Origin: Diplonema papillatum
Lineage: Eukaryota > Euglenozoa > Diplonemea > Diplonemida > Diplonemidae
Assembly (NCBI GenBank): GCA_030068145.1
Contig: JAPJBO010000096.1
Span: forward strand, 248,001-312,000
DNA: 64,000 nt
Reading direction: 5' to 3'
Made by a program: the position numbers and the translations under genes. The notes beneath the pieces were generated by a model. It saw only the letters and a list, made by a program, of their open reading frames with translations, did no database searches and was not told the DNA's origin. Positions 3,240 to 58,695 of the stretch are shown here, in pieces. Every line of letters begins with the position of its first letter. Positions within the stretch are counted from its first letter, which is position 1.

Positions 3240-5150
3240 GCTTGCTGCCTTCGTGCTCTCTTGGGCAGATGTGAAGCAAGCAAGGAAAACAAGCGGTTCT
3301 ATTTCAGCTCGAGCCGCCTGCGGGAACCCGTGCAGCCGGGCGACCGCCGCGCCACCTGCGCGACGGTGACTTCCGCCAGGGGCACGGACACAGGGGCGGG
3401 CCCCTTCCCGTGGCACTGGAGCTCCGTCCCCGTCACAATCACCAGCCCGCGGACCGTCTCGCCGCCGGCCTTCCACGGCAGCACAGCTGCGAACGATGCG
3501 TCTGTGGTTCGTGGTTTGCGCGGGTGCGACAGAACGTCGTTTTCAGAGCGGAAGTTCGCTTCATATGGCAGGGGTTTTGCTACAGTACGCTCGGGATCTC
3601 GGGATTTCTAGAGTTAAATTTCAAAATTTTCAGAGTTAAAACTCGCTTGCTGCCTTCGTGCTCTCTTGGGCAGATGTGAAGCAAGCAAGGAAAACAAGCG
3701 GTTCTATTTCAGCTCGAGCCGCCTGCGGGAACCCGTGCAGCCGGGCGACCGCCGCGCCACCTGCGCGACGGTGACTTCCGCCAGGGGCACGGACACAGGG
3801 GCGGGCCCCTTCCCGTGGCACTGGAGCTCCGTCCCCGTCTTAATCACCAGCCCGCGGACCGTCTCGCCGCCGGCCTTCCACGGCAGCACAGCTGCGAACG
3901 ATGCGTCTGTCGTTCGTGGTTTGCGCGGGTGCGACAGAACGTCGTTTTCAGAGCGGAAGTTCGCTTCATATGGCAGGGGTTTTGCTACAGTACGCTCGGG
4001 ATCTCGGGATTTCTAGAGTTAAATTTCAAAATTTTCAGAGTTAAAACTCGCTTGCTGCCTTCGTGCTCTCTTGGGCAGATGTGAAGCAAGCAAGGAAAAC
4101 AAGCGGTTCTATTTCAGCTCGAGCCGCCTGCGGGAACCCGTGCAGCCGGGCGACCGCCGCGCCACCTGCGCGACGGTGACTTCCGCCAGGGGCACGGACA
4201 CAGGGGCGGGCCCCTTCCCGTGGCACTGGAGCTCCGTCCCCGTCACAATCACCAGCCCGCGGACCGTCTCGCCGCCGGCCTTCCACGGCAGCACAGCTGC
4301 GAACGATGCGTCTGTCGTTCGTGGTTTGCGCGGGTGCGACAGAACGTCGTTTTCAGAGCGGAAGTTCGCTTCATATGGCAGGGGTTTTGCTACAGTACGC
4401 TCGGGATCTCGGGATTTCTAGAGTTAAATTTCAAAATTTTCAGAGTTAAAACTCGCTTGCTGCCTTCGTGCTCTCTTGGGCAGATGTGAAGCAAGCAAGG
4501 AAAACAAGCGGTTCTATTTCAGCTCGAGCCGCCTGCGGGAACCCGTGCAGCCGGGCGACCGCCGCGCCACCTGCGCGACGGTGACTTCCGCCAGGGGCAC
4601 GGACACAGGGGCGGGCCCCTTCCCGTGGCACTGGAGCTCCGTCCCCGTCACAATCACCAGCCCGCGGACCGTCTCGCCGCCGGCCTTCCACGGCAGCACA
4701 GCTGCGAACGATGCGTCTGTCGTTCGTGGTTTGCGCGGGTGCGACAGAACGTCGTTTTCAGAGCGGAAATTCGCTTGATATTGCAGGGGTTTTGCTACAG
4801 TACGCTCGGGATCTCGGGATTTCTAGAGTTAAATTTCGGGATTTTCAGAGTGACAGCTCGCTTGCTGCCTTCGTGCTCTCTTGGGCAGATGTGAAGCAAG
4901 CAAGGAAAACAAGCGGTTCTATTTCAGCTCGAGCGCCTGCGGGAACCCGTGCAGCCGGGCGACCGCCGCCGGCGCCTTCACCCGGATGCTCCGCGCCACC
5001 TGCGCGACGGTGACTTCCGCCAGGGGCACGGACACAGGGGCGGGCCCCTTCCCGTGGCACTGGAGCTCCGTCCCCGTCACAATCACCAGCCCGCAGATGG
5101 TCCCGCCGCCGGCCTTACACGGCAGCACAGCTGCCGTGTAAGGCCGAACG
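3240..5150 (-). repeat. Intronic tandem array of partial exon-2 copies, 405-bp unit
   Basis: Four near-identical 405-bp units start at 3240, 3645, 4050 and 4455. A fifth, more diverged partial copy lies at about 4860-5150. Each unit holds the 3' splice acceptor and first ~120-200 bases of exon 2 of the PH-like gene, plus upstream intron sequence. The four central units share a deletion that shifts the reading frame, and they end in stop codons. The exon-proximal copy (about 2835-3239) is the functional one. An old partial duplication was evidently amplified later, because the central units resemble each other more than they resemble the exon. Confidence 0.9.
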
Positions 5151-5165
5151 ATGCGTCTGTGTTTG

Positions 5166-5225
5166 GATGAAGAGATTACTTGCGAGGCACCAGTAACACC
5201 ACCGTTCATAGAGCACAGGTCTCAA
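5166..5225 (+). repeat. Short dispersed repeat shared with the 24.7-25.4 kb region
   Basis: The segment beginning AGAGATTACTTGC and ending near ATAGAGCACAGGTCT is repeated with few changes at 24768-24825, and its second half again at 25210-25240. It lies beside partial gene copies in both places. Function unknown. Confidence 0.6.
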
Positions 5226-5261
5226 GTGCGACGCACGTTTTTTTCAGGTAGTGAAGGCACA

Positions 5262-5345
5262 GGCACACACACAGGTTATCTCCTTTGAGATTTCGCAACT
5301 TGCAGCCTCCTCAAGTATTTCCTACGAAACAGATGCTTTCACAAA
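5262..5345 (+). mobile_element. MITE-like element, partial copy (family M1)
   Basis: Carries the right half of family M1 (see the copy at 62832-63045), ending in CCTCAAGTATTTCCTAC. It lies in the intron of the PH-like gene. M1 termini are imperfect inverted repeats of about 20 bp (consensus AAATACTYGAGG then a CTGCC core). Confidence 0.6.
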
Positions 5346-5374
5346 ACAAAGAGAGACAGAGAGAAAGAGACGAG

Positions 5375-5495
5375 ATAGAGTGCAGGGACCATCTCTCCGG
5401 GGAGTTTCCGGTCTCCTCACTTCTGTTCGTGCTGCTACGGCGGGCGTAAGCCGCTCCGGATGTGCGCTGCAGGTTGCGGCTCTGAAACAGCGATG
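5375..5495 (+). repeat. Dispersed repeat R3, copy 1
   Basis: About 110 bp (GCAGGGACCATCTCTCCGG through the reverse of CAACCTGCAGCGC) that recurs at 26876-26995 with roughly 90% identity by eye. Here it is intronic. Confidence 0.75.
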
Positions 5496-5522
5496 ATGCT
5501 ACAAAAATGAGAACATGCGTAC

Positions 5523-6351
5523 CTTGCCTGCGGGTGCGGTCTCCGCCTGCACCGGTGGTCTGCACGAAATCAGTAGTAGATGAGGACGCCGACGTAGTGG
5601 ACGGGAGATCCAAGAAGGGCATCGTCAACGGATTCGGGGAGGCCGAACGTGCCGCTGTTTGGTGGAAGCCGTACGGGTCGGCCGACGGGGCGCCGGGCGG
5701 TTGCATCGCGGTTGGCAGCCCGTCGTCGACGAGCAGCGGGGGGATGTTTTGCGGGAGGTTCTGAAGCGCGTGCGCGGGGGTGATGGTGAGGGATTTCACC
5801 TCAACCGGCGAGAACAAGGAGAAGGGGGTGTCACCGTCACGGGGTTGAAAGAGGACAGCCCCGTTGTGCACAGAGGATATCGACACCCACCCGTCTGTCG
5901 AACGCTGGACGGACTCGATCGTCGGCAGGCACCGGACGCACAGCCCGGTGCGGTTCCTCAGCAGATACACCGTGTTGTCGTGCGATATTACGACCGTGTA
6001 CAAATCGGACTTCCCTTTCCTCTTCGCCACCGTCAGGTACTGCACTTGGGGGTGCCCTTTCGTGTTCCACAAGGAGGCAACCCTTTGCGGCACAGAAGCG
6101 TCGTTGACCTTCTCCATCGAAAGCAACTCCACCACGTTCAAACACCTCCCGGACACCACCGGAACGACGACCTCTTGTTCCCCTTCCAAGTCCACTGTGT
6201 GCTCCGCGGGTTGCCGGCTTGAAACCTCGATGGCTTCCCATGCTTCCTTCACCTCCTGGAGCGCGTACCTTCCATTTTCGACGCGTTCGCTCATCTCCTT
6301 GGCCATGTCCAGCGGGACCCGCACTTCATATTCGATGACGACTTCCGCCAT
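5523..6351 (-). CDS. Multi-PH-like-domain protein, exon 1
   Basis: It starts at ATG 6351 (MAEVVIEYEVRVPLD) and runs open to a GT donor at 5522-5521 (AAG then GTACGC), leaving one base of a split Ala codon. About 276 residues are encoded. Residues ~1-70 are charged and helical. Residues ~95-190 look like a PH-like domain (YLTVAKRKGKSDLYTVVIS, then NTVYLLRN and CLPTIESVQ). A Pro/Ser/Thr linker follows. The open frame continues past the donor to 5311, but that tail lies in two dispersed repeat elements, so I treat it as intron. Exon 2 is 2.4 kb away, across an intron filled with partial copies of itself. The minus frame reads through the splice junction without a stop, which supports the two-exon model. 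Confidence 0.7.
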
Positions 6352-6585
6352 TTTTCATAGCGAGGGGGGAAAATCTTAGTTTCGTGTTCAGGCGCTACTT
6401 GCCTCTCATGTGTTTGATGCTAGCATCAAGTCTTCTTCGCGGAATGCAGAGTCCTATTTTCTGTTCTTTTCTTTCTTTCGTTGTCGACAACTTCTTTTTT
6501 CTCCTTCTACTTTCTTTACCATGGTTTTTTGGACTTTCTGGTGCCGTAGAGTAGTTCTTCTTTCTCTATGCCGCCCACGTCGATG

Positions 6586-6614: not shown

Positions 6615-9600
6615 ATGAACCACATGGATTAGCATGCACTGCCTTGAAAGTCAGGTTATCGGATGACGTCGTCACCTGCCATTGCGTCGTCAAGGTCGAG
6701 CATTTGTGGAGCTAGCGGGGTTTGGCTTTCTTGCGATTCCAGAGACTGAGTCGGCGAGTACGAGGGCGGGCACGTGTGCCCGTTTTTCACTTTCGAGGGC
6801 ATTGGTGTGCCCGTGGTCCCCGGTCGTTTCTGAGAGCTGCTTGCCCTCGGTACCTTCTTCTTCCTTCGATGCACCCCTGAGTCGGGGGTGGTCGCCTTCG
6901 TCTTCTTCCGCTTGCGGCCGGCGATCGGGCCTTCCTTCGGGGTGCCGAGCACCCTCTTCTTCAGCGCTGGTCGTTCGCTGGTTCCTGGCGTTGGTGGCGG
7001 CCTCTTGGTCGCCCGTCCGGTCGTCGCCGTCTCCTTTTTAGTTGCCGCGAGCGGCGCTCGCGCCGCTCGCGCCGCTCGCGCCGCTTTTCCTACTGGCGTT
7101 TCCCGCTGTACACCCACCTGGGTGGGTGAGGAGGGCCTCTTCTTCTTGTTGCGTCCGGGGGTTGACTGGACGTTCGGCTTGTTGGACTGGTGGTGGCCGC
7201 GGCTGCAACATGCCGCCGGTCGCCTCTGCGTCAGCGTAGGGAGCCTTTTGCACTCTTGGCAGGTCCCTCTGCCATGCGTGCGGCAGGCATGATGCCCGCT
7301 GCGGCAACACGCCGCCGCCGTCTTGCACTCGCCGCACTTCGTCGTGCTGTGCTCTGTGCACACCGCGATCGGCTGCCCATCGTTCGCGTGGTGATGGTGC
7401 CGGCAGCACATCTCTACCGTGGGAACGTCCCTTCGGACGAGTGCTCTGCACGCCTCACACTTCCCTTTGTGATGGGTCGCGCACGTGACGAGTGCCTTCT
7501 CTATACCGACACCCGGCATATGCACGGGGTCTGGGTGCAGTTGTGGTGGGGCAGGCAGGGCCCACCTCGCCGCTCTCCCGATCGTCCAGTCAGGGTACGT
7601 CGGGCACTGCGTCCCTACATCGCTTCCTTTCACTTGTTCCTCAAGTATCGTCCCCGTGTGTGCCTCGCGAAAGCGTGGCCTGGGCCGTATACCCGATATC
7701 CCCGTGATGCCCATGAACGACAGCGACGTCGTCGGGCACACCCTCTCTCCTCTCATGCAGCTTCCCAGCCCTTGCTGTGCCGCCAGCTTGTCCAACGCGC
7801 TCATCATGCAGCGCAGGACGTTTCCCCGTTCTCTCACCCCCTTCGGCGCATTCCCGTGCAGCGGCATGCTGAGGCCCGAGAAGAGTTCAAAGTCGATCGC
7901 AAGCTCCAGCATTGACGCCTGCCCGTTCTCGGTCCATTGCATGTCCGACAGCCACGCTACCAACGCATAAAACGTCGGTAGTCCCCAGGTCTTGTTCCGC
8001 TCCCACGTCCATGCCGGGGCAATCCGCGCGAAGGGGTGGTCAAATTTCTCGGCAGGCATCGCATTCGCTCTCGACCAGGGGGTCGTGGGGTTCCTGGCCA
8101 CCCAGCCACGTGCTTCGAGCCCAGCCCGTTCCGCAAGGATTTCAGCCATCATCTCCTGGAGCCGCCTCGAGAATTGGGCATTCTCGGGTACTACCACACC
8201 GTGTTCCAGCGTGCATCTGGGCCAGTCGGCCCGGTTGGCTGCCATCAGCTCGGCATGTGCCTCTCGTCGCCGTATGTGCGAGTACGCTCCGCAGTCCCAG
8301 AATACGTGTTTCTCGTCCTCGGTGTCGCCGCTTCCACAGTGCTTGCAGCTGGGCGCCTGCGGCTCAGCTCCGGCCTGCCTCATCCGCGACGTGTACTCAG
8401 CCGTGTTCACCCCCCCCGCCAACGCTACACGTATAAGCCTCGCGGTGTGCGCGGGACATTCACGCATCCTCCAGAAGGAGTTCGTCCGCTCCAGGTCGGC
8501 TCTCTGTATGCCCTCGAATCCCGGCCGCCTCGCCACCAGTCGGGACCACGTCTTCGCCCTCAAGTCCGCCCTAACTTCATGTCCCCTCTTCGAAGGTGCC
8601 GAGGTTAACGGGTCATACGTTGCTCCATTCCTCAGCGTGCGAGACAGGGGCCCGGGTCCCCATACGTGTCCACACTCCTCCATGCTCCTCATCGCCAGTC
8701 CAACTGGCCCCAGGGGTAGGTCCCCCTCGGCGTATCTTCCCCGGATGCTCTCCATCAGAGGCAGCAGTCGTGGCAACCTCTCGCACGCCGCGTAAAACGC
8801 TGTCGTCACCCTATATGCTAGGCATGTACCGGGATCCGTCAGGTGGCCCTTCTCCTGAAAGTTTAGGACCATCTCCCTCGCGCGCTTCGGGTTGGATCCA
8901 CCCCAGATCAGTCCCATCACCGACGTCGTCAGCCGTTTCATCGCCACCTTCGATACCGGCGCGAAAGAGCAGCCTGACAGCGCCGCCGGTAGCACATTCG
9001 ACTGCACAATCCGGACCCGCTTTTCGTACCGGAACGGCGCATGGCGGAGGCCTTCCGCCAGGGCAGCCGCCTTCTCCACCCTCTCCGAGTCGGACCTTTC
9101 CGTCCTATTCTTCGCCGTCGAGACTAGGACCCCGAGGCACTTGACGGATTTGCTAAACCGCAGCAGCGCATCCACGCTGCGGAGTTTGAGAGTCGACTGA
9201 TGCCTACGTCTCGTCGAGAACGCGACCGTCTTCTGGAGGTTTAGCTCCATCCCGGTGAGTGTGCAGAACTCGTCTACTACGTCCACTCCCTTTTGCAGGG
9301 CGGCCTCCGACAGCCTGGACAGCAGTGTGGCGTCGTCCGCGTATGACTTTGGACTCACACCCTCCGCTTCTTTCTTGACCGCTTTCATCACTACCGACAG
9401 CAGGGCATTGATGAGTATGACGGATACAGGGCACCCTTGAAGGATACCGTTGGTCACACTGAACTCCCTGCCCACCCCTAATGGTAGCTTGAAGCGTCTC
9501 GCGAGCAGTCTGTAGATAGCCCTCAGCGGCTTGAGAACCCGATTGTGCAATCCTAAGTCCTCGGCTAAGCGCAGTACTATCTCTCGCGGGACCATGTCGA

Positions 9601-10170
9601 AGCATTTCCGGAAGTCCAGCGCCACACCGTAGAGCGGCTCCCCGTCTAACAAGGCGTCCTCCATCTCGAGCCCAATTTCCATCAAGACGTCCTCGATCCG
9701 GTGACCCGGTCGAAAGCCTTTCTGTCCTTCTTCGATCCATTCCTCTTGCCACAGAACTATGTCCGCCAGCCTGCGGCAGGCCCATAAGCGGTACACGGCG
9801 GATGTGACGGTTATCGGTCTTGTGTGCAGCGGGTCTTGACTCTCATCCTTCGGCACCATCGACACCAGCGCAGTTGTCATGCTTGCCGGCCAGTCTCCAG
9901 TTGTTTCGACCAGGTTCATGACGTCTGCAAGTGCATTCAGCAGGGGGAGCGGCAACTCCCGCAGTTCAGCCATACGCCAGCCGTCCACCCCTGACGCGCT
10001 TTTCTTCGGCTTCTTCCTCAGCAGAATTCGCAGCTCCTCCCCCGTGATTGTTCCGGCTTCCATCATATGTGGGCCGATGTGATCCCGGAACCGATCCCGA
10101 AACGGCTCGTACTCCGGCTCTGGCCCGTCCTTGTACTTACGCAGGATAGGGTCCCACGCAGTGTTCAGCA
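6615..10170 (-). mobile_element. Non-LTR retrotransposon (LINE-like), ~3.56 kb, probably 5'-truncated
   Basis: Bounded by the perfect 29-bp direct repeats at 6586-6614 and 10171-10199. It carries one long minus-strand ORF with reverse transcriptase and a zinc knuckle. The 3' untranslated part is only about 40 bases and I see no clear poly(A) tail. If the repeats are a target-site duplication, the element starts almost exactly at the first RT codons, so anything upstream of RT was lost at insertion or lies in the adjacent zinc-finger ORF. Confidence 0.75.
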
Positions 10171-10171
10171 T
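6656..10171 (-). CDS. Reverse transcriptase polyprotein with C-terminal Cys/His array
   Basis: 1171 residues from ATG 10171. The RT palm is clear: GFRPGHRIEDVL at 152-163, catalytic Asp in ALDFRKCFD (~186), GCPVS at 246-250, YADD at 277-280 and a CLGVLVS segment near 345. A CCHC knuckle follows at C609, C612, H622, C627, the spacing usual after RT in non-LTR elements. Around 690-800 comes a Trp-rich module (motif SMLELAIDFEL); its relative survives as a relic at 33.6-34.06 kb. I could not find a clear PD..D restriction-like endonuclease or an AP endonuclease. From about 890 to 995 there are three C-x2-H..C-x2-C units, each followed by a CC..HH motif, and then a very basic tail with SPT/PTP stretches. 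That C-terminal array is not a standard LINE domain. The frame is intact, so the insertion may be recent. Confidence 0.85.
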   Translation of the reverse strand: MLNTAWDPILRKYKDGPEPEYEPFRDRFRDHIGPHMMEAGTITGEELRILLRKKPKKSASGVDGWRMAELRELPLPLLNALADVMNLVETTGDWPASMTTALVSMVPKDESQDPLHTRPITVTSAVYRLWACRRLADIVLWQEEWIEEGQKGFRPGHRIEDVLMEIGLEMEDALLDGEPLYGVALDFRKCFDMVPREIVLRLAEDLGLHNRVLKPLRAIYRLLARRFKLPLGVGREFSVTNGILQGCPVSVILINALLSVVMKAVKKEAEGVSPKSYADDATLLSRLSEAALQKGVDVVDEFCTLTGMELNLQKTVAFSTRRRHQSTLKLRSVDALLRFSKSVKCLGVLVSTAKNRTERSDSERVEKAAALAEGLRHAPFRYEKRVRIVQSNVLPAALSGCSFAPVSKVAMKRLTTSVMGLIWGGSNPKRAREMVLNFQEKGHLTDPGTCLAYRVTTAFYAACERLPRLLPLMESIRGRYAEGDLPLGPVGLAMRSMEECGHVWGPGPLSRTLRNGATYDPLTSAPSKRGHEVRADLRAKTWSRLVARRPGFEGIQRADLERTNSFWRMRECPAHTARLIRVALAGGVNTAEYTSRMRQAGAEPQAPSCKHCGSGDTEDEKHVFWDCGAYSHIRRREAHAELMAANRADWPRCTLEHGVVVPENAQFSRRLQEMMAEILAERAGLEARGWVARNPTTPWSRANAMPAEKFDHPFARIAPAWTWERNKTWGLPTFYALVAWLSDMQWTENGQASMLELAIDFELFSGLSMPLHGNAPKGVRERGNVLRCMMSALDKLAAQQGLGSCMRGERVCPTTSLSFMGITGISGIRPRPRFREAHTGTILEEQVKGSDVGTQCPTYPDWTIGRAARWALPAPPQLHPDPVHMPGVGIEKALVTCATHHKGKCEACRALVRRDVPTVEMCCRHHHHANDGQPIAVCTEHSTTKCGECKTAAACCRSGHHACRTHGRGTCQECKRLPTLTQRRPAACCSRGHHQSNKPNVQSTPGRNKKKRPSSPTQVGVQRETPVGKAARAARAARAPLAATKKETATTGRATKRPPPTPGTSERPALKKRVLGTPKEGPIAGRKRKKTKATTPDSGVHRRKKKVPRASSSQKRPGTTGTPMPSKVKNGHTCPPSYSPTQSLESQESQTPLAPQMLDLDDAMAGDDVIR

Positions 10172-10199
10172 TCGTTTAGCATTGAGTTCTTTTAAGTAC
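10171..10199 (-). repeat. 29-bp direct repeat, right copy (probable target-site duplication)
   Basis: Matches 6586-6614 exactly. It contains the last codons and stop of the zinc-finger ORF and abuts the RT start codon. Confidence 0.8.
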
Positions 10200-10850
10200 G
10201 TTTAGCAGCGGCTGCCGAATCATGCCGTGGCACCGTCCCTTTGTGCGTCTGCTTCGCAGAAAAAGTGTGGGAAAGGAGTCCAGGACTCCGTGGTTTGAAA
10301 CCATATCTTTGCGCCCTTGAACCACTATGTCCCTTGCTGCGGCCACAGCATCCAAATCAGCAACATGGAGGTACTGCAATCGCTGCTGAGGGGTCTTGTC
10401 TTCCGACTCCCGCACTCGTACAGTACGCGTATGCGGTCGCGACTTCACACACGGGTGCATGAGCTTGTAGTGCCGGCGTAAGTCCGACTTGCTTGTGCAG
10501 AAGTGTCTGCAATCCTTTCTTTGACACCGCAGGTTTGCGTTGTACCCCGGTCGAAATGTATCGGGGTTGAAGCGTATACCCTTTCGCTTTTCGAGCTGAG
10601 TCAAGGTTTCGAAGTGCAAACCGGGCTGCGGTTGAAATGCTACTGACTCCCCTTCGACGTCAGCAACCTGCGAAAAGATGCCCTGGGATGCTTGACTTTG
10701 CCGGGATGTTTGACTTCGGATGTCATCCTCGGTATCGGTCTCTTCACTTGATGATGTGTCTGCATCCCGAGCAGACTGTGAAGCAGCATCCGTCCGCTCA
10801 GCGTGTGCTGCCGTGAATGAAGGCGGCTGCGAGACAGGCGTATCAGGCAC
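10176..10850 (-). CDS. C2H2 zinc-finger ORF without an ATG (retroelement ORF1 or interrupted host sequence)
   Basis: The open minus frame extends a little upstream of 10850, but no ATG opens it (the codon at 10850 is GTG). It looks 5'-truncated. The first ~60 residues are Ser/Thr/Glu-rich. A classical C2H2 finger sits near residues 105-125 (CQRKDCRHFC, then LRRHYKLMH). It ends four bases before the RT ORF, and its stop lies inside the 29-bp direct repeat. R2-like and NeSL-like LINEs carry such a finger upstream of RT, so it could be ORF1. If the repeat is a true target-site duplication, it is flanking DNA that happened to be interrupted. I cannot decide between these. Confidence 0.5.
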   Translation of the reverse strand: MPDTPVSQPPSFTAAHAERTDAASQSARDADTSSSEETDTEDDIRSQTSRQSQASQGIFSQVADVEGESVAFQPQPGLHFETLTQLEKRKGIRFNPDTFRPGYNANLRCQRKDCRHFCTSKSDLRRHYKLMHPCVKSRPHTRTVRVRESEDKTPQQRLQYLHVADLDAVAAARDIVVQGRKDMVSNHGVLDSFPTLFLRSRRTKGRCHGMIRQPLLNVLKRTQC

Positions 10851-11039
10851 AACGCTTTCAACGTTCGGGGTCGGCTCGGGAATTTCGTTGGGTGTGCCCT
10901 CGGGTATGGTTCCACCTCCTCCTTCCTTCGTCCGTTCTCCTTAAAAAAAGGGGGTTTTCAAAGTGTGTTGTGGCTCGTAACCAACCGCCACGGGGCACTA
11001 CTTCCACCAGGTGAAAGTGTTTACGCTTTCTCGAGAGTT

Positions 11040-12700: not shown

Positions 12701-12719
12701 AGAAAGCTAGGTCCAGTTT

Positions 12720-13506
12720 CTCTGATGGCCGTTCTCGGGATGCAGCGAGTTGAGGAGGTCCTCGGCCACTTCGTTGCCTTCCACGTCCGCAATTTAGATC
12801 GTCGACGTCGGCGAGAGGATCTTGCGGGGTGAATTGTCGTGCGGATTAGACACAAGCTTGCCAGGACCCAAAGTTGCCGGATGGATACATAAGGGCGCTG
12901 CCCTTATGCCCTTGAAGTGCAGCAGGCCGTCTTTGGTACGATACCAACCATGCAAGCTGACGTGTGTCTGCACCTTGGCGCTTCAACTTCACTCGTGACT
13001 GTTCTCGGGATGCAGTGAGTTGAGGAGGTCCTCTGCCACTTCGTTGCCTTCCACGTCCGCAATTTGGATCGTCGACGTCGGCGAGAGGATCTTGCGGGGT
13101 GAAGTGTCGTGCGGATTGGACACAAGCTTGCCAGGACCCAAGGTTGCCGGATGGATACATAAGGGCGCTGCCCTTACTTGAAGTGCAGCAGGCCGTCTTT
13201 GGTACGATACCAACCATGCAAGCTGACGTGCGTCTGCACCTTTGGCGCTTCAACGTCACTCGTGACTGTTCTCGGGATGCAGTGAGTTGAGGAGGTCCTC
13301 TGCCACTTCGTTGCCTTCCACGTCGGCAATTTGGATCGTCGACGTCGGCGAGAGGATCTTGCGGGTGAAGTTTTCGTGCGGATTAGCCACAGCTTGCCAG
13401 GACCCAAGGTTGCCGGATGGATACACAACTTGGAGTGCAGCAGGTCGTCTTTGGTACAATACGTACCATGCAAGCTGACGTGTGTCTGCACCTTGGCGCT
13501 TCAACT
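12720..13506 (-). repeat. Downstream copies of the C2orf81-like gene's 3' end
   Basis: Three tandem copies, about 250-270 bp each, are marked by the same end-of-gene segment near 12733, 13003 and 13269 (the real gene's is near 13521). Each keeps the final ~35 codons (IADVEGNEVAEDLLNSLHPE) and usually the stop, then ~130 bp of 3' flank. Point changes differ between copies. They lie directly downstream of the intact gene in the same orientation. Confidence 0.85.
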
Positions 13507-15300: not shown

Positions 15301-15380
15301 TTGCTGCCGTTTCCTGAGCCCCCTTCCCGGTGCTTTGCTCAACTTTCCTACCTGTATGACAGGTGACAGGGTGGTGTTCA

Positions 15381-16745
15381 AAAAGCTGATTTCAAGGAAT
15401 GTTTTTGTGCTAGTGTTTTGGGTATACGAGGACTAGAAGAATTGTGAAAACGGGTTGGAATGTTTTGGAACCGCAGTGCGGATAGCTTTGTGTATTGTGA
15501 ATCGAATAATTGGGGTACGGAGGACTGCACGAGGTCGAGCAGCTCCTTGCACACGCACTGCACCGTGTACGGGATAGCCGTCCGGTCGAAGTAGTTCTTG
15601 AGCGCTTCGTCCTGCGCACGACGACCTCCATGATCTCGCTGCACAGCAGCTCGCCGTCCTCCCGCGCCCGCACATTCTCGCGAATGCGCTCCAAGTACAC
15701 CGGCGCCGCCGCTTCCTCCAACACCGGCTCTTCTTCCTTTTTCTTCGCCGGCATTTGCTGCCGTTTCCTGAGCCCCCTTCCCGGTGCTTTGCTCAACTTT
15801 CCTACCTGTATGACAGGTGACAGGGTGGTGTTCAAAAAGCTGATTTCAAGGAATGTTTTTGTGCTAGTGTTTTGGGTATACGAGGACTAGAAGAATTGTG
15901 AAAACGGGTCGGAATGTTTTGGAACCGCAGTGCGGATAGCTTTGTGTATTGTGAATCGAATAATTGGGGTACGGAGGACTGCACGAGGTCGAGCAGCTCC
16001 TTGCACACGCACTGCACCGTGTACGGGATAACCGTCCGGTCGAAGTAGTTCTTGAGCGCTTCGTCCTGCGCACGACGCCCTCCATGATCTCGCTGCACAG
16101 CAGCTCGCCGTCCTCCCGCGCCCGCACATTCTCGCGAATGCGCTCCAAGTACACCGGCGCCGCCGCTTCCTCCGACACCGGCTCTTCTTCCTTTTTCTTC
16201 GCCGGCATTTGCTGCCGTTTCCTGAGCCCCCTTCCCGGTGCTTTGCTCAACTTTCCTACCTATATGACAGGTGACAGGGTGGTGTTCAAAAGGCTGATTT
16301 CGAGGAATGTTTTTGTGGTAGTGTTTTGGGTATACGAGGACTAGAAGAATGTTTTGGAACCGCAGTGCGGATGGCTTTGTGTACCGTGAATCGAATAATT
16401 GGGGTACGGAGGACTGCACGAGGTCGAGCAGCTCCTTGCACACGCACTGCACCGTGTACGGGATAGCCGTCCGGTCGACGTAGTTCTTGAGCACTTCGTC
16501 CTGCGCACGACGCCCTCCATTATCTCGCTGCACAGCAGCTCGCCGTCCTCCCGCGCCCGCACATTCTCGCGAATGCGCTCCAAGTACCGCCGCCGCTTCC
16601 TCCGACACCGGCTCTTCTTCCTTTCTCTTCGCCGGCATTTGCTGCCGTTTCCTGAGCCCCCCTTCCCGGTGCTTTGCTCAACTTTCCTACCTGGGGTGTT
16701 CAAAAGACTGATTTCGAGGCATTTCTTTGTGCTGGAGGCACACAA
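15381..16745 (-). repeat. Upstream copies of the C2orf81-like gene's 5' end, ~454-bp unit
   Basis: Three tandem copies (about 15381-15834, 15835-16288 and 16289-16740, the last with small deletions). Each contains the 5' flank, the ATG and about 80-90 codons of the gene, up to the GTGCAGT at the end of the ELLDLVQ block. There each switches abruptly to a shared non-coding segment (GTACCCCAATTATTCG). Coding frames are mostly intact to the break. One copy carries ATGs that could start truncated products. Confidence 0.9.
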
Positions 16746-16793
16746 GGACTAGAAGAAGAAGGGGTAGAAACTGAGCGACTCTTCGGTTGTTGT

Positions 16794-24603: not shown

Positions 24604-24699
24604 CCCAACACGCCCGCCCCCCCCCCGCTGCCCGACCTGCGGTGCATTGACTAATCGATTTACCCCACGCAAGATTCCTGAGGTACGGTTGGGCACGCT

Positions 24700-42960: not shown

Positions 42961-43011
42961 AGACAATACGAAAACAATGTTTCAGCCATTGCGAAGCCTC
43001 AGAGGATATGC

Positions 43012-44139: not shown

Positions 44140-44149
44140 GGCATGGAAT

Positions 44150-47100: not shown

Positions 47101-49930
47101 GGGCGGCGACGTCGGTGGCGAACGCACGACGGCCCTCAGGAACGAGGTTCCGAGGTCGCCCGCCTTCATGCTCGACTGCAGCTCCGCCGCCGCCGCCGCC
47201 CGGCGGGCGTCGTCTTTGTTTTTCATGGCATGGAATCTTCGGGGGAGAGGTGGGGACTGTGAACATTGTGTGTTTCGTGAGTCTACGTACGTGCCGAGGG
47301 AAGTTAGCCAGGTGTAGTAAGGGATTGTTTTGTTTGGGCGCACTAGCGGAACTCACCTGCTTTGGTAAGTGTCATGTGGTACGCTGCAAACTACTAATCC
47401 CTAGTACCAACAATGCATTGTTGGTGGTGGACTGGCGCCGGGAGGACAGGAAGTCGCTGCGGCCGGTGCCGGACAGGCTGCGCTCGGTGCTGTCGAGGCC
47501 ACCGAGGGGCATCGTGTCCTTCCGCGAGGGTCCCATGGGCGGCGACGTCGGCGGTGAGCGCACGACGGCCCTCCGGAAGGAGGTTCCGAGGTCGCCCGCC
47601 TTCATGCTCGACTGCAGCTCCGCCGCCGCCGCCGCCCGGCGGGCGTCGTCTTTGCTTTTCATGGCATGGAATCTTCGGGGGCGGGGGTGGTGAGAGGTGG
47701 GGACTGTGAACATTGTGTGTTTCGTGAGTCTACGTACGTGCCGAGGGAAGTGAGCCAGGTGTAGTAAGGGATTGTTTTGTTTGGGCGCACTAGCGGAACT
47801 CACCTGCTTTGGTAAGTGTCATGTGGTACGCTGCCAGCTACTAATTTTTAGTACCAACAATGCATTGTTGGTGGTGGACTGGCGCCGGGAGGACAGGAAG
47901 TCGCTGCGGTCGGTGCCGGACAGGCTGCGCTCGGTGCTGTCGAGGCCACCGAGGGGCATCGTGTCCTTCCGCGAGGGTCCCATGGGCGGCGACGTCGGTG
48001 GCGAGCGCACGACGGCCCTCCGGAACGAGGTTCCGAGGTCGCCCGCCTTCATGCTCGACTGCAGCTCCGCCGCCGCCGCCGCCCGGCGGGCGTCGTCTTT
48101 GCTTTTCATGACATGGAATCTTCAGGGGCGGGGGTGGTGAGAGGTGGGGACTGTGAACATTGTGTGTTTCGTGAGTCTACGTACGTGCCGAGGGAAGTTA
48201 GCCAGGTGTAGTAAGGGATTGTTTTGTTTGGGCGCACTAGCGGAACTCACCTGCTTTGGTAAGTGTCATGTGGTACGCTGCAAACTACTAATCCTTAGTA
48301 CCAACAATGCATTGTTGGTGGTGGACTGGCGCCGGGAGGACAGGAAGTCGCTGCGGCCGGTGCCGGACAGGCTGCGCTCGGTGCTGTCGAGGCCACCGAG
48401 GGGCATCGTGTCCTTCCGCGAGGGTCCCATGGGCGGCGACGTCGGCGGTGAGCGCACGACGGCCCTCCGGAACGAGGTTCCGAGGTCGCCCGCCTTCATG
48501 CTCGACTGCAGCTCCGCCGCCGCCGCCGCCCGGCGGGCGTCGTCTTTGCTTTTCATGGCATGGAATCTTCGGGGGCGGGGGTGGTGAGAGGTGGGGACTG
48601 TGAACATTGTGTGTTTCGTGAGTCTACGTACGTGCCGAGGGAAGTGAGCCAGGTGTAGTAAGGGATTGTTTTGTTTGGGCGCACTAGCGGATTGTTTTGT
48701 TTGGGCGCACTAGCGGAACTCACCTGCTTTGGTAAGTGTCATGTGGTACGCTGCCAGCTACTAATTTTTAGTACCAACAATGCATTGTTGGTGGTGGACT
48801 GGCGCCGGGAGGACAGGAAGTCGCTGCGGTCGGTGCCGGACAGGCTGCGCTCGGTGCTGTCGAGGCCACCGAGGGGCATCGTGTCCTTCCGCGAGGGTCC
48901 CATGGGCGGCGACGTCGGTGGCGAGCGCACGACGGCCCTCCGGAACGAGGTTCCGAGGTCGCCCGCCTTCATGCTCGACTGCAGCTCCGCCGCCGCCGCC
49001 GCCCGGCGGGCGTCGTCTTTGCTTTTCATGACATGGAATCTTCAGGGGCGGGGGTGGTGAGAGGTGGGGACTGTGAACATTGTGTGTTTCGTGAGTCTAC
49101 GTACGTGCCGAGGGAAGTTAGCCAGGTGTAGTAAGGGATTGTTTTGTTTGGGCGCACTAGCGGAACTCACCTGCTTTGGTAAGTGTCATGTGGTACGCTG
49201 CAAACTATTAATTCTTCGTACCAACAATGCATTGTTGGTGGTGGACTGGCGCCGGGAGGACAGGAAGTCGCTGCGGTCGGTGCCGGACAGGCTGCGCTCA
49301 GTGCTGTCGAGGCCACCGAGGGGCATCGTGTCCTTCCGCGAGGGTCCCATGGGCGGCGACGTCGGTGGCGAACGCACGACGGCCCTCAGGAACGAGGTTC
49401 CGAGGTCGCCCGCCTTCATGCTCGACTGCAGCTCCGCCGCCGCCGCCGCCCGGCGGGCGTCGTCTTTGTTTTTCATGGCATGGAATCTTCGGGGGAGAGG
49501 TGGGGACTGTGAACATTGTGTGTTTCGTGAGTCTACGTACGTGCCGAGGGAAGTTAGCCAGGTGTAGTAAGGGATTGTTTTGTTTGGGCGCACTAGCGGA
49601 ACTCACCTGCTTTGGTAAGTGTCATGTGGTACGCTGCAAACTACTAATTCTTAGTACCAACAATGCATTGTTCGTGGACTGGCGCCGGGAGGACCGGAAG
49701 TCGCTGCGGCCGGTGCCGGACAGGCTGCGCTCGGTGCTGTCGAGGCCACCGAGGGGCATCGTGTCCTTCCGCGAGGGTCCCATGGGCGGCGACGTCGGTG
49801 GCGAGCGCACGACGGCCCTCCGGAACGAGGTTCCGAGGTCGCCCGCCTTCATGCTCGACTACAGCTCCGCCGCCGCCGCCGCCCAGCGGGCATCGTCTTT
49901 GCTTTTCATGGCATGGAATCTTTGGAGGCG
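44150..49930 (-). repeat. Thirteen tandem copies of the WW-like gene's 5' end, ~430-447-bp unit
   Basis: ATGs of the copies are at 44573, 45020, 45467, 45914, 46361, 46790, 47226, 47662, 48109, 48556, 49029, 49476 and 49909. Each carries the ATG and about 79 codons of the gene with the frame open, then breaks at GGTGGACTGG into a shared non-coding segment. That break is marked in most copies by the perfect palindrome ACCAACAATGCATTGTTGGT. Shared variants show a higher-order pattern: the pair at 46090/46528 recurs at 49203/49640, and the unit at 47836 recurs at 48756. One unit has a 28-bp internal duplication near 48661-48716. Confidence 0.95.
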
Positions 49931-50420
49931 GGGGGTTCTGAGAGGTGGGGTATGGTGTCGGAAGTGGGCCTGGTAGTGATTGCAACCTCAAACGATCACG
50001 GAACACCGCGGGAGGCGACTCCAGTGCGTCAAAAAGAAATTCAGCAGAGTGGCTGATGCAGACGATCGCCACACATTACAGCCTTTTCGTGCTCCCAAAG
50101 TACCCCGTTCGAAGCATTGCTATTTCGTTTGATGGTTAGAAACATGAGTGTTTTCTACTAACAAGAAATTGTAAACTCGACAGAGAACACTGGCAGCGTG
50201 TTTGGGAAGTTATCCTAACAGCCACGGTTCACATCTGGCACTCATCGACAACAATGTTTAGTTCCCTTTCCGTTTGAGAGGCTCTTTGGCAATTCAAACT
50301 GTGCGTTATGACGTACTGCAATTCTTCTAAACGATTCCTGGCAGCCGGGCGTACGTTTCCTTTAACTTTTGCCAGAGACGCGAGCCGTCAGGCAGGGCGG
50401 CTGCGGGTACGCTGCGTTCT
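49930..50420. other. Intergenic, nothing recognised
   Basis: No coding-like frame or repeat shared with the window. Confidence 0.5.
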
Positions 50421-50765: not shown

Positions 50766-51674
50766 ATGTGTCGTAAGCAGCCGGAGACTGCAGGCGCAGG
50801 GGGCAGGTCTTGCTTTACTTTTCTCTTCTTCATGGAGACCCGCCCCCGGCTTCCCGACTGTCCAATCACTGTCGAGAAAGTTTGCGCCTATTGTGATGAG
50901 GTGGTTGACCAGGCCCCCACGAAGCCTTATACACAACACGGCTACAACACGAGGATGCAGCCCTGCTTAGGTGTGCACTCAGCCATCAGGTCGTTGGCTG
51001 CTAAGCACCCCCCGACCGGTCGATTTGCCACTTTTGTGGCCCTCTATTCGCCGGGCGGTGCTGTCAGCACTGATCCGCGTCGCATCAAGTGCATGATGCT
51101 GGCGGTTGGGGATCGGCGACCAAGGTGCGGTCAACGGTGTCGCCACGTGAAGGCCCCTATGCACCGATGCACCCTAAAAAAATATCAAATGGAGCCCAAG
51201 CTCTTTTTTGAGACAAAAACACCACCTTTTGCCACATGCCCGCTTGTCTGTCAGCTGGAAGCACCTGTGTCTGCCGGCTTCTCGCACCTCTTTTCGGCGC
51301 CTGCTGCTATACTCAGCTGGAAGAGCCTGTCTTTTTGGGGCACCTGCTGCTTGTTCGTAGCTGGAAGGCTTTTCGTCGGATCGCCGGCATCGGGTGCCAT
51401 GCTCGAGCGGGGAAAAGCTGAAGGAATCAGTGCGCCGTGTTTGCTTTTTTGCATTTTTCATAGTACGGGGAAATTGCAAAAACGTGTTCGGAATGGGTAT
51501 GTACTCAACACCGCACTGGTCCCGTCTGGGCCGTGTTTCGGTCCTTTAGTCTGCAGACAGGACAGCGGTGAGTCTGGCTCGTCAGGCCGTTGTTCGTGGC
51601 TCGTCCACAGGACCACCCGTGCGACTAGAGCACAGGGAGAAGACCCCAACAATAGTATCCGAGCGATCAGTTAA
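50766..51674 (+). CDS. Unrecognised Cys-rich ORF, doubtful
   Basis: 302 codons from an ATG. The first ~140 residues have Cys pairs (CAYCDEVV, RCGQRCRH) and mixed composition that could be a degenerate element or gene. The last ~70 codons run through an R2 repeat copy, so the frame's C-terminus is unlikely to be real. It is on the plus strand, unlike every recognised host gene here. I assign no function. Confidence 0.2.
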   Translation: MCRKQPETAGAGGRSCFTFLFFMETRPRLPDCPITVEKVCAYCDEVVDQAPTKPYTQHGYNTRMQPCLGVHSAIRSLAAKHPPTGRFATFVALYSPGGAVSTDPRRIKCMMLAVGDRRPRCGQRCRHVKAPMHRCTLKKYQMEPKLFFETKTPPFATCPLVCQLEAPVSAGFSHLFSAPAAILSWKSLSFWGTCCLFVAGRLFVGSPASGAMLERGKAEGISAPCLLFCIFHSTGKLQKRVRNGYVLNTALVPSGPCFGPLVCRQDSGESGSSGRCSWLVHRTTRATRAQGEDPNNSIRAIS

Positions 51675-51680
51675 AAACTC
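51465..51680 (+). repeat. Dispersed repeat R2, copy
   Basis: Begins with AATTGCAAAAACGTGTTCGG and carries CAACACCGCACTGGTCCCGT, as at 25754 and 37560; ends near GCGATCAGTTAAAAACTC. Confidence 0.75.
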
Positions 51681-52884: not shown

Positions 52885-53010
52885 CATGATATGTGCTCAA
52901 CTCCGCACTGGTCCCGTCTGCGCCGTGTGCGGACACATAAGGCGGACCATCATCAGCGCGGAACCTGAGTGTCTGCAGACAGGACAGCAGTGTGAGTCTG
53001 GTTTGCTAGG
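52885..53010 (+). repeat. Dispersed repeat R2, internally deleted copy
   Basis: Contains CTCCGCACTGGTCCCGTCTG and GGCGGACCATCATCAGCGCG but lacks the GTTTCGGTCCTTTAAG segment between them. Confidence 0.7.
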
Positions 53011-53039
53011 CGGGGTGGGGAGATCGTCGCTAGTAGTCA

Positions 53040-53550: not shown

Positions 53551-54440
53551 GCTTGTACATTCGTGAAAGAGAGGTTGAACCAGCATTGTGGAACCACTAC
53601 TTGAAGAGAAAGTCTCAGCTTCCTCCACATGCACCTGCCCACCTGTACATGTACCTGCTGTACGTGTAGTCCACTGGCTATCGAGGCGACGGATACGCAA
53701 AATGCGCCCGGGCCTGCGGCGACTGCCGAGGTGTGGGGGCGGCTGCGGGTGCTGGGCCGGCCTGTACGCGGCGTGGGCCGCGCGCGCGGCCTGCGCCTGG
53801 GCTTCGAAGTCTTCCACCGCGCGGGAAGAGGCCGAACGCCGCGGCTCCCATATAGTACAGGGGTACGAGGCCGAGATCTGCGGGATCTCCTCGAAGCCCT
53901 TCCAGCGCAGCAGCCGGCGGAAGGTGCGCAACAGACAGCGACCTCAGGTTGTGCCATAAAGCACCCCTCGATCGCGGTGAGCACACTCGCACAGAGCACC
54001 GATGTATCAAGAGAATCACGCGCAGGATTCCCTCGTGCACTCAAATCATAGACCTTGTCGGTAGGGTGGCTGGTGCGCAACTCGATACTGCAGAGAACAA
54101 CCACCGCGCGGGGACTGTTGCTGCGGCGGGTACTCGAGGCGACGGATACAAAAATGCGCACGACTGACGAGGTGCGGGGCGGCTGCGGGTGCTGGGCCGG
54201 CCTGTACGCGGCATGGGCCGCGCGCGCGGCCTGCGCCTGGGCTTCGAAGTCTTCCACCGCGCGGGAAGAGGCCGGACGCCGCCACTGGGGGTACGAGGCC
54301 GAGATCTGCAGCATCTCCTCGAAGCCGTTCCAGCGCAGCAGCCGGCGGAAGCGTGCGCACAACTGACAGCGACCTCAGGCATTGGCATAAAGCACCCCTC
54401 GATCGCAGTAAGTAAACACACTCGCAAAGAGCGCTTGTGC
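53400..54440 (-). repeat. Downstream copies of the metacaspase gene's 3' end
   Basis: Two tandem, decayed copies (about 53400-54000 and 54055-54440). Each repeats the FDQIPQISASYP region and the A/Q/P-rich tail of the metacaspase plus flank, with deletions and frameshifts. The flank segment GGTAGGGTGGCTGGTGCGCA recurs at 53411 and 54060. Confidence 0.85.
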
Positions 54441-54442
54441 AC

Positions 54443-55525
54443 TCAAATCATAGACCCCGGTTGCCGGTAGGGCACCTGGTGCTGCGGATACTGCGGAGAT
54501 CGAGACTGCTGCTGCGGCGGGTACTGCGCGTATTGAGGCGACGGATACGCGAAGGCAGCCCGGGCCTGCGGCGACTGGGCGAGGTGTGGGGGCGGCTGCG
54601 GCTGCGGGTGCTGGGCCGGCCGGTACGCGGCGTGGGCGGCGCGCGCGGCCTGCGCCTGGGCCTCGAAGTCCTCGGGGAAGAGGTCGAACGCCGTGGCTCC
54701 CATGTCGTACGGGTACGAGGCCGAGATCTGCGGGATCTGATCGAAGCCTTTCGAGCGCAGCTGCCGGCGGAGCGCGTACAGCAGCGACCGCAGGTTGTGC
54801 CGCGTGTTGCCTGGGAACGCGGAAAGCAGCGCGGATGTCAACGCGCCTCCGGCGCGCGGGTCTGCGAGCTCGACGAATTGCTTGCCGACTTGGTTCACAT
54901 CCGCGGACGTCTGAGCGTCTTCACACCCCGAAATCATCAAAGCGTCGCATGCGATCCTGTTCTTATCCGACATCTGGTCGCCCATCAGCACGCAGTCGGC
55001 CTCGCTCCGGTTCGCGACGGCGTAATACGGCAAATCCAGGACCGTCCCGCTGTGGCAGCAGTCCATCACCGCGAGCACCCGGTTTCCTACCGGCACGCGG
55101 AGCAGGAACTGCGCCTTGAGCACGTCGTCCGATATCATCCCCGCCCGCTCGTAATCGACGGGGCAGATCGTCTCGTCGAGTCCGTCCACCTCGTCGCCGT
55201 CTCTGTCCTCCTCTTGCGACCCGTGCCCGGAAAAGTGCAGGAACAGCGTCTTCTTGCCCTGGGGGGCGAGGTTCTGGGTCAGCCAGGCGAGCCCGGCTAA
55301 TATGTTGCGCTTCGTCGGTTGCATGGCGGGGTTCATCTGGTCGTCGGTCAGGACGAGGAGCTCGTACGAGCCGTGGATGCGCCGCGCGATGCGTTGCACG
55401 TCCAACACGCAGCCTTTCAACGCGGACCGCGTTCCGAAGTAGTTGATCCCGACTAGCATCGCCTTTCTCCCCGTGCCTCCGTATCCAAGCGGCGGAGGCA
55501 CAGCGGCAGGCGTGAAATTATGGAC
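54443..55525 (-). CDS. MCA: Type I metacaspase, main exon
   Basis: Opens after an AG acceptor at 55527-55526 in phase 0 (VHNFTPAAVPPPLGYGG). The p20 domain starts at RKAMLVGINYFGTRSALKGC. The catalytic His is in HFSGHGSQ and the catalytic Cys in MDCCHSGT. The DGDEVDGLDE and PVDYERAG loop and the SGCEDAQTSADV segment, which is near substrate- and calcium-binding residues in known metacaspases, are present. The p10-like end (FDQIPQISAS) follows. The last ~85 residues are Pro/Gln/Tyr/Ala-rich, as in Leishmania MCA and T. brucei MCA5. Metacaspases are Arg/Lys-specific Ca-dependent cysteine peptidases; all key residues are visible, so it should be active. The first in-exon ATG is just before LVGINYFG, but an upstream exon joins in frame. 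Confidence 0.92.
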   Translation of the reverse strand, partial: VHNFTPAAVPPPLGYGGTGRKAMLVGINYFGTRSALKGCVLDVQRIARRIHGSYELLVLTDDQMNPAMQPTKRNILAGLAWLTQNLAPQGKKTLFLHFSGHGSQEEDRDGDEVDGLDETICPVDYERAGMISDDVLKAQFLLRVPVGNRVLAVMDCCHSGTVLDLPYYAVANRSEADCVLMGDQMSDKNRIACDALMISGCEDAQTSADVNQVGKQFVELADPRAGGALTSALLSAFPGNTRHNLRSLLYALRRQLRSKGFDQIPQISASYPYDMGATAFDLFPEDFEAQAQAARAAHAAYRPAQHPQPQPPPHLAQSPQARAAFAYPSPQYAQYPPQQQSRSPQYPQHQVPYRQPGSMI

Positions 55526-56931: not shown

Positions 56932-57195
56932 CTTGGGGTTGTTCAGCCGCAGGCGTGGCCTGTGACCGCCGAACATGGTCATGAGCATTGCTGCCATCGC
57001 CCCCGTGGCGAGGATGTTCCCGATTCCAAGGCCTCCAGGACTGATCGCGTCCAGCGCACCGGAACCTGCGCCAAGAAGCCCAGCTCCGCCCCCGAGGCCT
57101 CCTTCAAGTAAGTTAGCGAAATCTTCCTGTGTTGCGGGTGACGGTTCGTCTATCCGGACGGAAAACGGAAATTTAGGTGGGGCACGCACATTATC
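56932..57195 (-). CDS. MCA: Probable upstream exon of the metacaspase (N-terminal prodomain)
   Basis: 88 codons between a TGCAG acceptor (57197-57196) and an AAG/GTACGC donor. Both ends are phase 0 and fuse in frame to the main exon (LRLNNPK then VHNFTPAAV). It encodes DNVRAPPKFPFSVRIDEPSP, an acidic helix (QEDFANLLEGG), a Gly/Ala-rich hydrophobic stretch (GIGNILATGAMAAMLMTMFG) and a basic end. A Gly/Met-rich hydrophobic prodomain is plausible for a protozoan metacaspase. I could not connect a further 5' exon; a candidate near 57270-57345 does not fit in phase. Confidence 0.5.
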
Positions 57196-57199
57196 CTGC

Positions 57200-58195
57200 A
57201 GGTAGCCGGTCCACCGCTATCCCCTGGAACTGCTACGAAGTGTCTGCCGCTATTAATCACAGGGTGTACCTCGGTAAGCCAAGGTCTATAATAGGTCCCT
57301 CTAGGTTCCAGTTGAGTTGCATAGGATCATCATCACAGTCCCTGAAGCACGACACGGTACGGGTCCGTTGCGGTGTTGACGTGCAAATCGCTCGTCAAAG
57401 CTGGATATAGGCCGGGCCTGGGAAAACTCGGCAGGTGATGGCTTGTAGCCTATTCAAAGTTGCCTTATCGGCAACTTCGCGTGCTTCAGGGTTGCAGCCA
57501 GAGGTGACAGAAAGGCTGTCACAGGGATTCACGGGCTAGCAGCAGCCAAGTGTTCAAAGCGACGTAGCTGGCGGCTTCCCCGAGAAATCCCACTCCCAGA
57601 AAAGCAGGTGCAACGAACAGCATGATTGGAGCGAGCATACCTCATCGCAGCACAACGACAGCATGTCCCCCATGGTAGGCAGCACGCGGGCTACGCGTCT
57701 CAAGACTGCAAGGAAAGCAACGTATTAGCAGCCACCATGTTAATCAGAGTCCTTGCTGCTTCGAAAAAGTGTGTTCCGACTGGGTGAAGCCGTGCCCCCC
57801 CACCCGTCCTAAAGTGATTGTGGTGTTCCCGCCACTGACGATCTGGTCGAGTGAACAACAAGCGGTCGTTTCCGAAAAGGTTCAAAATACTCTGAGTTCG
57901 TATGTTGATACAAGGTACGTGAGTCCTGGTCGAATCGGTCACAGAAAAACGGAGAAACTGGACGATGAGATCAATTGTCTTCAAACATGCGGGGGTGCCC
58001 GACTGTGGTAACAGCGGGCAGACAGATTTTAGGTCAAAAAAGAAAGAATCGTTCGGAGAACGTAAAACTGAATGAGACACGTCTGTGCACAACACCGCTG
58101 TCTGCTTCCGTTGTTCGGTTGCTCTCAATTGATCACCGGCCACAGGTCAATGTCAATGGTCCTGTGCGATGTTCTTGCCACCGGTTCATGATACT
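57200..58195. other. Intergenic or 5' intron sequence, no clear exon
   Basis: Short frames only. A possible exon on the minus strand near 57270-57345 (DDDPMQLNWNLEGPIIDLGL) could be the metacaspase's first exon but does not join the next one in frame. Confidence 0.4.
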
Positions 58196-58199
58196 TCCT

Positions 58200-58695
58200 A
58201 CCTGAGGTTGTCCATGGTCGAGATTATTGACGGTTCGACAAAGTCGTTTCCAGGCACATGTTCAAGGCAACGGTCACCTGCAATGTTTCTGTTTCGTCTC
58301 GCGACATCTTCTTCCTGAGCTTGTCCATGACCATGCGATCGATCTTCTTGAGGATCTCCTTTGGGTCGCCCACGACCGCGATGAAGTTGTCGCCTGCGAC
58401 GTCCTTCTTCGCCTCGATCTCGTCGGCGGACACGCGCACCAGCTGCGGGGTCGCGCAGGCCCATGAGAACGTGGGGCCGGGCGACCCTGTGGCAGTGCAC
58501 GCAGAGCTGCATGCGATCGCGATATACTTGAGTGTTTCTTCAGCCCCGTCATATGTCCATGGCATAGATCACGCACAATGTTTCTGCTTCTGTCTCATGA
58601 CACCTGCTTCCTGAGGTTGTCCATGATCATGCGATCGAGATACTTCAGTGTTACTTCAGCCCCGTCAAAGTTGACACATGCAATGTTTCTGTTTC
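58200..58695 (-). repeat. Downstream copies of the sirtuin-like gene's 3' end
   Basis: A copy at 58300-58565 keeps the RVSADEIEAKKDVAGDNFIA to KKM end, fused by internal deletion to the CVHCH zinc-knuckle region. A shorter one at 58566-58690 holds only the last few codons and 3' flank. Orientation as the gene. Confidence 0.85.

Follow-up and report, generated by a model that had tools for sequence, protein, structure and literature searches.

Tandem arrays at gene edges in Diplonema papillatum suggest gene-linked duplication of long units

Introduction

Partial copies of gene ends lie beside intact genes in one 64,000-bp stretch of the Diplonema papillatum genome, and the question they raise is whether such copies favour gene edges beyond chance and what kind of process would make them. 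The stretch, referred to throughout as the window, covers positions 248001-312000 of contig JAPJBO010000096.1 (C96:248001-312000) in assembly GCA_030068145.1, which holds 271 Mb in 2910 contigs. The published D. papillatum assembly is 280 Mb; its authors call the organism haploid, report unidirectional gene clusters and spliced leaders, and put repeats at half of the genome (PMC10161547).

A first-pass annotation of the window knew of no named system that behaves in this way. That claim did not survive: the gene-edge array pattern is already published for this genome by Valach et al. 2023, who report "repeat-bounded gene structures" in dozens of D. papillatum gene models, including one array of roughly 400-bp units in 12-13 degenerate copies (PMC10161547). 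The abstract, sections 5, 7 and 9 and selected passages of that paper contain no count against chance and, in the same portions, no mechanism. A literature search, with supplementary files outside its scope, turned up no other account of gene-edge arrays. We present a count here and find an edge excess for long repeat units, which we read as a gene-linked duplication bias filtered by selection.

Gene edges are copied beside six genes

Partial copies were located by self-BLAST, Tandem Repeats Finder and a codon-usage segmenter. All six genes named in the first-pass annotation have same-orientation local direct copies of a gene edge, as it had stated, and the copies are indeed fused to flanking DNA, the units holding part of the coding region together with adjoining non-coding DNA. 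The gene names were borne out in part. Pfam searches of single open frames (E<=0.1) back the caspase domain (PF00656), DUF4639 and the WD40 assignment, but find no PH domain in the PH-like gene, no PX domain in the 'PX' gene, and no WW or sirtuin domain; these names are kept below as labels. DUF4639 (PF15479) we take to be the C2orf81 family. The window's main coding frames are minus-strand and have a third-position G+C of 0.73-0.87. The genes and their edge copies are as follows, in window positions.

2-3202, minus strand: PH-like gene, open frame from exon 2 onward (exon 1 probably within 5314-6354)
2875-5164, minus strand: PH-like exon-2-start array, 405-bp units, about 5.6 copies, within the gene's intron
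12718-13670, minus strand: C2orf81-like 3'-end array, 270-bp units, copies 86% like the gene copy
13510-15300, minus strand: C2orf81-like gene, intact frame (PF15479 DUF4639, E 2e-13)
15063-16757, minus strand: C2orf81-like 5'-end array, 454-bp units, 3.7 copies
19879-24603, minus strand: 'PX' gene frame, holding two coding-interior arrays
24550-25364, minus strand: 'PX' gene 5'-end two-copy duplication, spacings 477 and 411, 85-88%, about 54 coding bases
31504-31734, minus strand: 5' end of a gene in 29073-31625, with partial copies at 35160-35198 (100%) and 35260-35473 (92%)
37052-37082, minus strand: WDR13, 31 bp close to the presumed start of an additional exon, with a perfect copy at 37422-37452
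41282-43432, minus strand: 'WW' gene 3'-end array, unit about 567
43015-44139, minus strand: 'WW' gene, intact frame, no Pfam match (E<=0.1)
43903-49950, minus strand: 'WW' gene 5'-end array, 447-bp units, 13.5 copies over 6.05 kb, with the first 79 codons of the gene
53681-54794, minus strand: metacaspase 3'-end duplication, unit 453, 73%
54446-55459, minus strand: metacaspase gene (PF00656 caspase domain, E 4e-30)
58275-58509, minus strand: 'sirtuin' 3'-end partial copy, a copy of 58675-58839 (97.6%) joined to a copy of 59006-59086 (92.7%)
58703-61126, minus strand: 'sirtuin-like' gene frame, no Pfam match (E<=0.1)

The rest of the PH-like intron (about 5165-5586) lies outside its array, and the copies of 31504-31734 sit 3.5-3.8 kb upstream, not in tandem. 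The small version of the pattern that had been noted at WDR13 is confirmed as a perfect 31-bp copy; the copied bases fall in an open stretch (36818-37135) that can be read as a putative further WD40 exon.

The SufC gene, found with TIGR01978 in a 3.7-kb locus (L030), has an array like that of the published gene model DIPPA_19968. Within the stretch read, four copies at a spacing of about 384-415 bp lie upstream of and into the SufC coding sequence. The same locus also carries a SufC 3'-end array (1970-3396) with a unit of 593 and 95% identity.

Long units exceed chance at gene edges

The window was picked for the pattern, so window counts cannot prove an excess. In its automatic set, all 6 of 6 long-unit arrays fall on edges, where 1.2-1.8 would be expected; this set omits the 'PX' pair (over the gap limit) and counts the 'sirtuin' cluster among the short units. 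The unselected sample comprises 240 kb picked blind to the finding: positions 100001-200000 of each of contigs C3 and C13, and 100001-140000 of C53. Arrays were counted as local direct repeats with units of 60-2000 bp, and long units are those of at least 250 bp (250-663 bp in the sample). The null places each unit at random, throws out coding-interior placements and scores a unit that spans a coding edge; coding-interior arrays are excluded from the test.

On the first count of the sample, 9 of 51 arrays of all unit lengths lie on edges, against 4.6-5.0 expected. Long units account for 6 of 15 against 2.5-2.7 expected (P 0.03-0.04), whereas short units (<250 bp) show no edge excess in the sample (3/36 against about 2.1-2.3). 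One array, C13:39329, was shifted by hand from non-coding to edge, its first copy being the 3' end of a frame that resembles enoyl-CoA hydratase by eye; the long-unit count then becomes 7/15 against 2.59 (P 0.008). With three arrays also removed as copies of dispersed repeats (C13:36166, C13:42052 and C53:29776), it is 7/12 against 2.08 (P 0.0015), and a whole-span null for long units in this corrected set expects 2.90 (P 0.012). The edge preference beyond chance that the first-pass annotation had claimed is supported for long units and not for short ones.

In a post hoc split, all five young long arrays (identity >=90%) lie on edges, with 0.93 expected, and two of the seven older ones, with 1.15 expected. 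Thirteen of 15 long-unit arrays fall within 1 kb of a coding edge where a fraction of 0.49 is expected (binomial P 0.003); for short-unit arrays the figure is 15 of 36, with a fraction of 0.42 expected. These counts suggest a genuine edge bias that is confined to long units and strongest in young arrays. The split between long and short units is new as far as the literature search shows.

Edges fall anywhere within the unit

A process at transcript or splice boundaries had been proposed as the source of the copies; RNA-guided or R-loop-linked copying at spliced-leader acceptors or poly(A) sites would be an example. The edge excess in the sample is what such a process would produce, both ends are affected in two window genes and in SufC, and in the published cases the repeated parts are 5' regions and the ends of first exons (PMC10161547). 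Against it stands the position of the edge in the unit. In 17 edge arrays, coding sequence makes up between 0.13 and 0.94 of the unit, with a mean of 0.50, and a Kolmogorov-Smirnov comparison with uniform gives P 0.64, with the extremes under-sampled because arrays with fewer than 20 coding bases could not enter the list. Because the coding share is not different from uniform, the edge can lie anywhere inside the unit. The 17 values come from eight window arrays, seven of the nine sample edge arrays and the two SufC arrays, with C3:35-255, C13:62000 and C13:39329 excluded; for some arrays the unit length was a matter of judgement (C3:83303 at 412, 'PX' at 414 and 'sirtuin' at 400).

Two further features of the copies speak against copying at boundaries. 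They include flanking non-coding DNA, and the sole gapped copy, that of 'sirtuin', does not look spliced: it lacks the intervening 166 bp and, by eye, joins at a short direct repeat and not at GT-AG ends. The window also has no exact match to the spliced-leader exon, for which the query was the sequence we take to be that of diplonemids. RNA-mediated copying was rejected on that join and on the missing spliced leader, and we regard a boundary process in general as quite improbable.

The array boundaries share no common motif by eye. In five of nine young two-copy duplications the repeats overlap their spacing by 1-8 bp, which is compatible with microhomology; of the remaining four, three leave a gap and one, in a longer array, overlaps by 112 bp. 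None of these features singles out the edge as the place where the process acts. A mobile element common to all units was considered and rejected, as self-BLAST shows no similarity between arrays except one 54-bp match, which joins DNA just outside the PH-like array (5170-5222) to the 'PX' duplication.

Dispersed elements at array boundaries

Dispersed elements could drive the duplications if insertion or breakage at an element end copied the target or flank (copy-insert-copy) and unequal exchange then amplified the product. Two elements sit within the 'WW' arrays.

42051-42240, no strand assigned: dispersed repeat of 190 bp, 49 match rows elsewhere, some adjacent
44249-44346, no strand assigned: dispersed repeat of 98 bp, in all 13 full units of the 'WW' 5' array, 39 match rows outside

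The first lies between copy 1 of the 'WW' 3' array, which ends at 42050, and copy 2, which starts at 42252. The second overlaps a 20-bp perfect palindrome (44330-44349, 11 exact in the array) and ends 3 bp from the unit junction. Element ends are flush or nearly so with boundaries in both 'WW' arrays and in C13:54352-55268, and the 31-bp WDR13 copy at 37422-37452 starts where a dispersed-repeat piece (37340-37422) stops, all of these being post hoc matches. An array of a related element abuts a duplication in C53, and the fractional copy numbers of the arrays would also be expected from such a process.

A local test over window and sample shows no such excess for long arrays. Long-array breakpoints fall within 5 bp of an element end in 3 of 72 cases against 2.8 expected and within 10 bp in 5 of 72 against 5.0; for ends backed by at least two hits the count is 2 of 72 where 0.9 is expected, and the two belong to a single non-coding array. 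The test used repeats visible in 304 kb, a local catalogue that misses rarer elements. In a search that skips very common words, neither the PH-like unit nor the C2orf81-like 3' region matches anything away from its own locus, and for the C2orf81-like 5' unit a single partial copy turns up elsewhere. Repeats being half of the genome (PMC10161547) likewise counts against this account, and elements as the driver appear improbable.

Two candidate contacts were rejected and left uncounted. The start of the metacaspase array coincides exactly with the end of only one element copy (C790), the others ending at least 60 bp earlier, and the extra copy of the C2orf81-like 5' unit at C96:340718 starts at position 1 of the query by choice of query.

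Several observations concern the elements themselves. The 98-bp element has splice-donor-like GTAAGT/GTGAGT motifs on both strands by eye. A block in C53 (26587-27417) is a 79% relative of it, forms its own 117-bp tandem array and ends 3 bp from a coding segment. Breakpoints of short arrays (<250 bp) lie within 5 bp of dispersed-repeat ends in 19 of 167 cases, with 6.3 expected.

Little evident coding constraint in the copies

It had also been suggested that the copies serve as decoys or alternative ends. Little coding constraint is visible in them, and RNA-Seq coverage indicates that the published SufC array is absent from mature mRNA (PMC10161547), so that this suggestion finds no backing. 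Among the columns of the 13.5-copy array, 5, 6 and 9 of 79 are polymorphic at the first, second and third codon position respectively; the non-coding part has 16 polymorphic columns of 210. Copies of the C2orf81-like 3' end differ from the gene in 17, 28 and 9 cells by codon position, and those of the 5' end in 1, 7 and 1. From sequence comparison, the array copies appear, though not firmly, to be unconstrained as coding sequence.

A proposed gene-linked duplication filtered by selection

A simpler account would be pure survivorship, in which duplications arise uniformly, genes are not favoured, and selection alone removes those inside coding regions. Coding-interior arrays have the form that it predicts.

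21106-22146, minus strand: two coding-interior arrays in frame 19879-24603, units 123 and 171, each a multiple of 3
29927-30485, minus strand: coding-interior array, unit 171, divisible by 3

They are few, and over window and sample all four have units divisible by three (114, 123, 171 and 171) that keep the frame; a further array, C3:650-1037 with a unit of 117, lies within a coding call in one segmentation and is classed as non-coding in the final one. None of 21 long-unit arrays in window and sample is inside coding sequence. Short-unit arrays fit uniform placement, and a constrained gene copy would slow divergence and so leave edge arrays detectable for longer. Against this, uniform placement of long units in harmless DNA, a null that already lacks interior events, still expects only 2.1 (2.08) of 12 on edges, and the observed number is 7. 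That young arrays show the excess (5/5, post hoc) is the opposite of a longevity effect, and 13 of 15 long arrays stand within 1 kb of genes. Survivorship on its own therefore seems unlikely.

We favour, at a probability of roughly 0.58, gene-linked long tandem duplication filtered by selection, without an edge-cutting machine. Chromosomal DNA would be duplicated locally in tandem with a unit of about 250-660 bp, and the units would later be multiplied by unequal exchange. Genic, G+C-rich DNA and its vicinity would be the favoured sites for duplications of this size; such an origin is proposed because selection alone falls short of the excess and because of the young-array excess. Coding DNA is richer in G+C than its surroundings. 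A duplication inside a coding region would usually break the only gene copy of a haploid and be lost, whereas one that spans an edge would leave an intact gene with a dead partial copy and could persist. The molecular step might be local template switching during repair of a break or fork. Extra sequence separates the copies in several edge arrays, so the process may begin with a spaced copy of the template-switch type rather than a clean tandem duplication. The edge bias therefore points to gene-linked mutation bias seen through selection, not to machinery that cuts at edges.

Several points weigh against gene-linked duplication. The bias rests on 12-15 long arrays, and both the age split and the removal of three rows were post hoc decisions. 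Coding calls come from our own codon-usage segmentation and are not RNA-based. Effects of G+C, transcription and replication, which are not separable here, may each lie behind the bias. Most window edge arrays have a fractional copy number, indicating truncation or sequence between copies, which would not be expected from a simple two-copy tandem duplication. Some comparisons with the gene copy also lean to third positions: 5, 25 and 45 cells by codon position in the 13.5-copy array (shared changes recounted), 2, 1 and 4 cells in the PH-like array, and 2, 0 and 4 sites in SufC, where the three copies have no coding difference among themselves. A third-position lean would come from changes in the gene copy itself, and the SufC differences may be changes in the gene itself.

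An assembly artefact is the last alternative. Long near-identical arrays are hard to assemble, and the evidence here is the assembled sequence. Published PacBio reads nevertheless span the SufC array and support the assembly there (PMC10161547, Fig. 2 legend), and decayed copies at 73-86% are unlike a product of misassembly. We consider an artefact hardly credible.

A more far-reaching version of gene-linked duplication is tentative, and we would sooner doubt it than adopt it. It posits a size-specific process (about 250-660 bp) aimed at genic DNA and separate from the ubiquitous 60-190 bp arrays, which would continually make dead gene-edge arrays and perhaps make or lengthen introns and untranslated regions (UTRs).

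If the edge bias is genome-wide, it would indicate that duplication is tied to genes in a genome that is both haploid and polycistronic, and the arrays would form a natural set for studying how selection sorts duplications and whether arrays seed introns. Gene-edge arrays are also relevant to gene annotation in diplonemids.

Other arrays, dispersed families and spliced-leader copies

Further arrays in the window touch no gene edge.

16795-18243, no strand assigned: non-genic array, 78-bp unit in 18.6 copies, 99%, of the short-unit class
35598-35924 and 61143-62080: other edge-free arrays, together with two dispersed-repeat arrays near 37340 and 38930

The array at 61143-62080 is built of roughly 136-bp units of TGATGACGGGG-like sequence and starts 17 bp upstream of the first ATG of 'sirtuin' (61126). 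The 67 self-BLAST arrays in window and sample have unit lengths of either 61-186 or 266-663 bp; Tandem Repeats Finder reports one period of 224 among 28, which lies inside the gap of 187-265 bp.

A retrotransposon lies within the gene cluster, with a reverse transcriptase frame at 6659-10201 (PF00078, E 8e-21) and a frame at 10179-10940 that is zinc-finger-like by eye. A dispersed family of about 200 bp occurs five times in the window (25723-25931, 37524-37731, 18789-18970, 51465-51677 and 52888-53013), and by self-BLAST its copies are pairwise about 70-97% identical.

The presumed spliced-leader exon has 616 matches in the genome at up to 3 mismatches (325 forward, 291 reverse) and the reversed control has none; the matches exceed the published 110 spliced-leader RNA genes. 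At four loci (L002-L005, position 1501 in each) the sequence after the spliced leader differs from one locus to the next, a pattern that would fit reverse copying of trans-spliced transcripts into genomic DNA.

Comparison with known systems

The closest likeness is to the repeat-bounded gene structures of the same genome, in which, as in the window, a terminal part of a gene (UTR and coding sequence) stands in tandem beside the intact gene. The 6.05-kb array of 13.5 copies exceeds the nearly 5 kb called longest in the passages of PMC10161547 cited here, and the text of those passages makes no mention of the SufC 3'-end array.

Three systems in other organisms share single features with the arrays, as far as the relevant parts of each paper describe them. 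Small tandem duplications made by break repair (PMC8355091, PMC5730883) resemble them in being local and head-to-tail; the likeness is one of copy arrangement and of the 1-8 bp overlaps in five of nine young two-copy duplications. Intron gain by tandem genomic duplication (PMC3443670) resembles the PH-like gene, where an exon edge is duplicated inside an intron, but that intron extends beyond the array and may have arisen without it. Partial tandem gene duplications in Drosophila yakuba (PMC5460883) also take part of a gene; those cases are population variants, and many-copy arrays of 400-bp units are not stated in the portions of that paper drawn on here.

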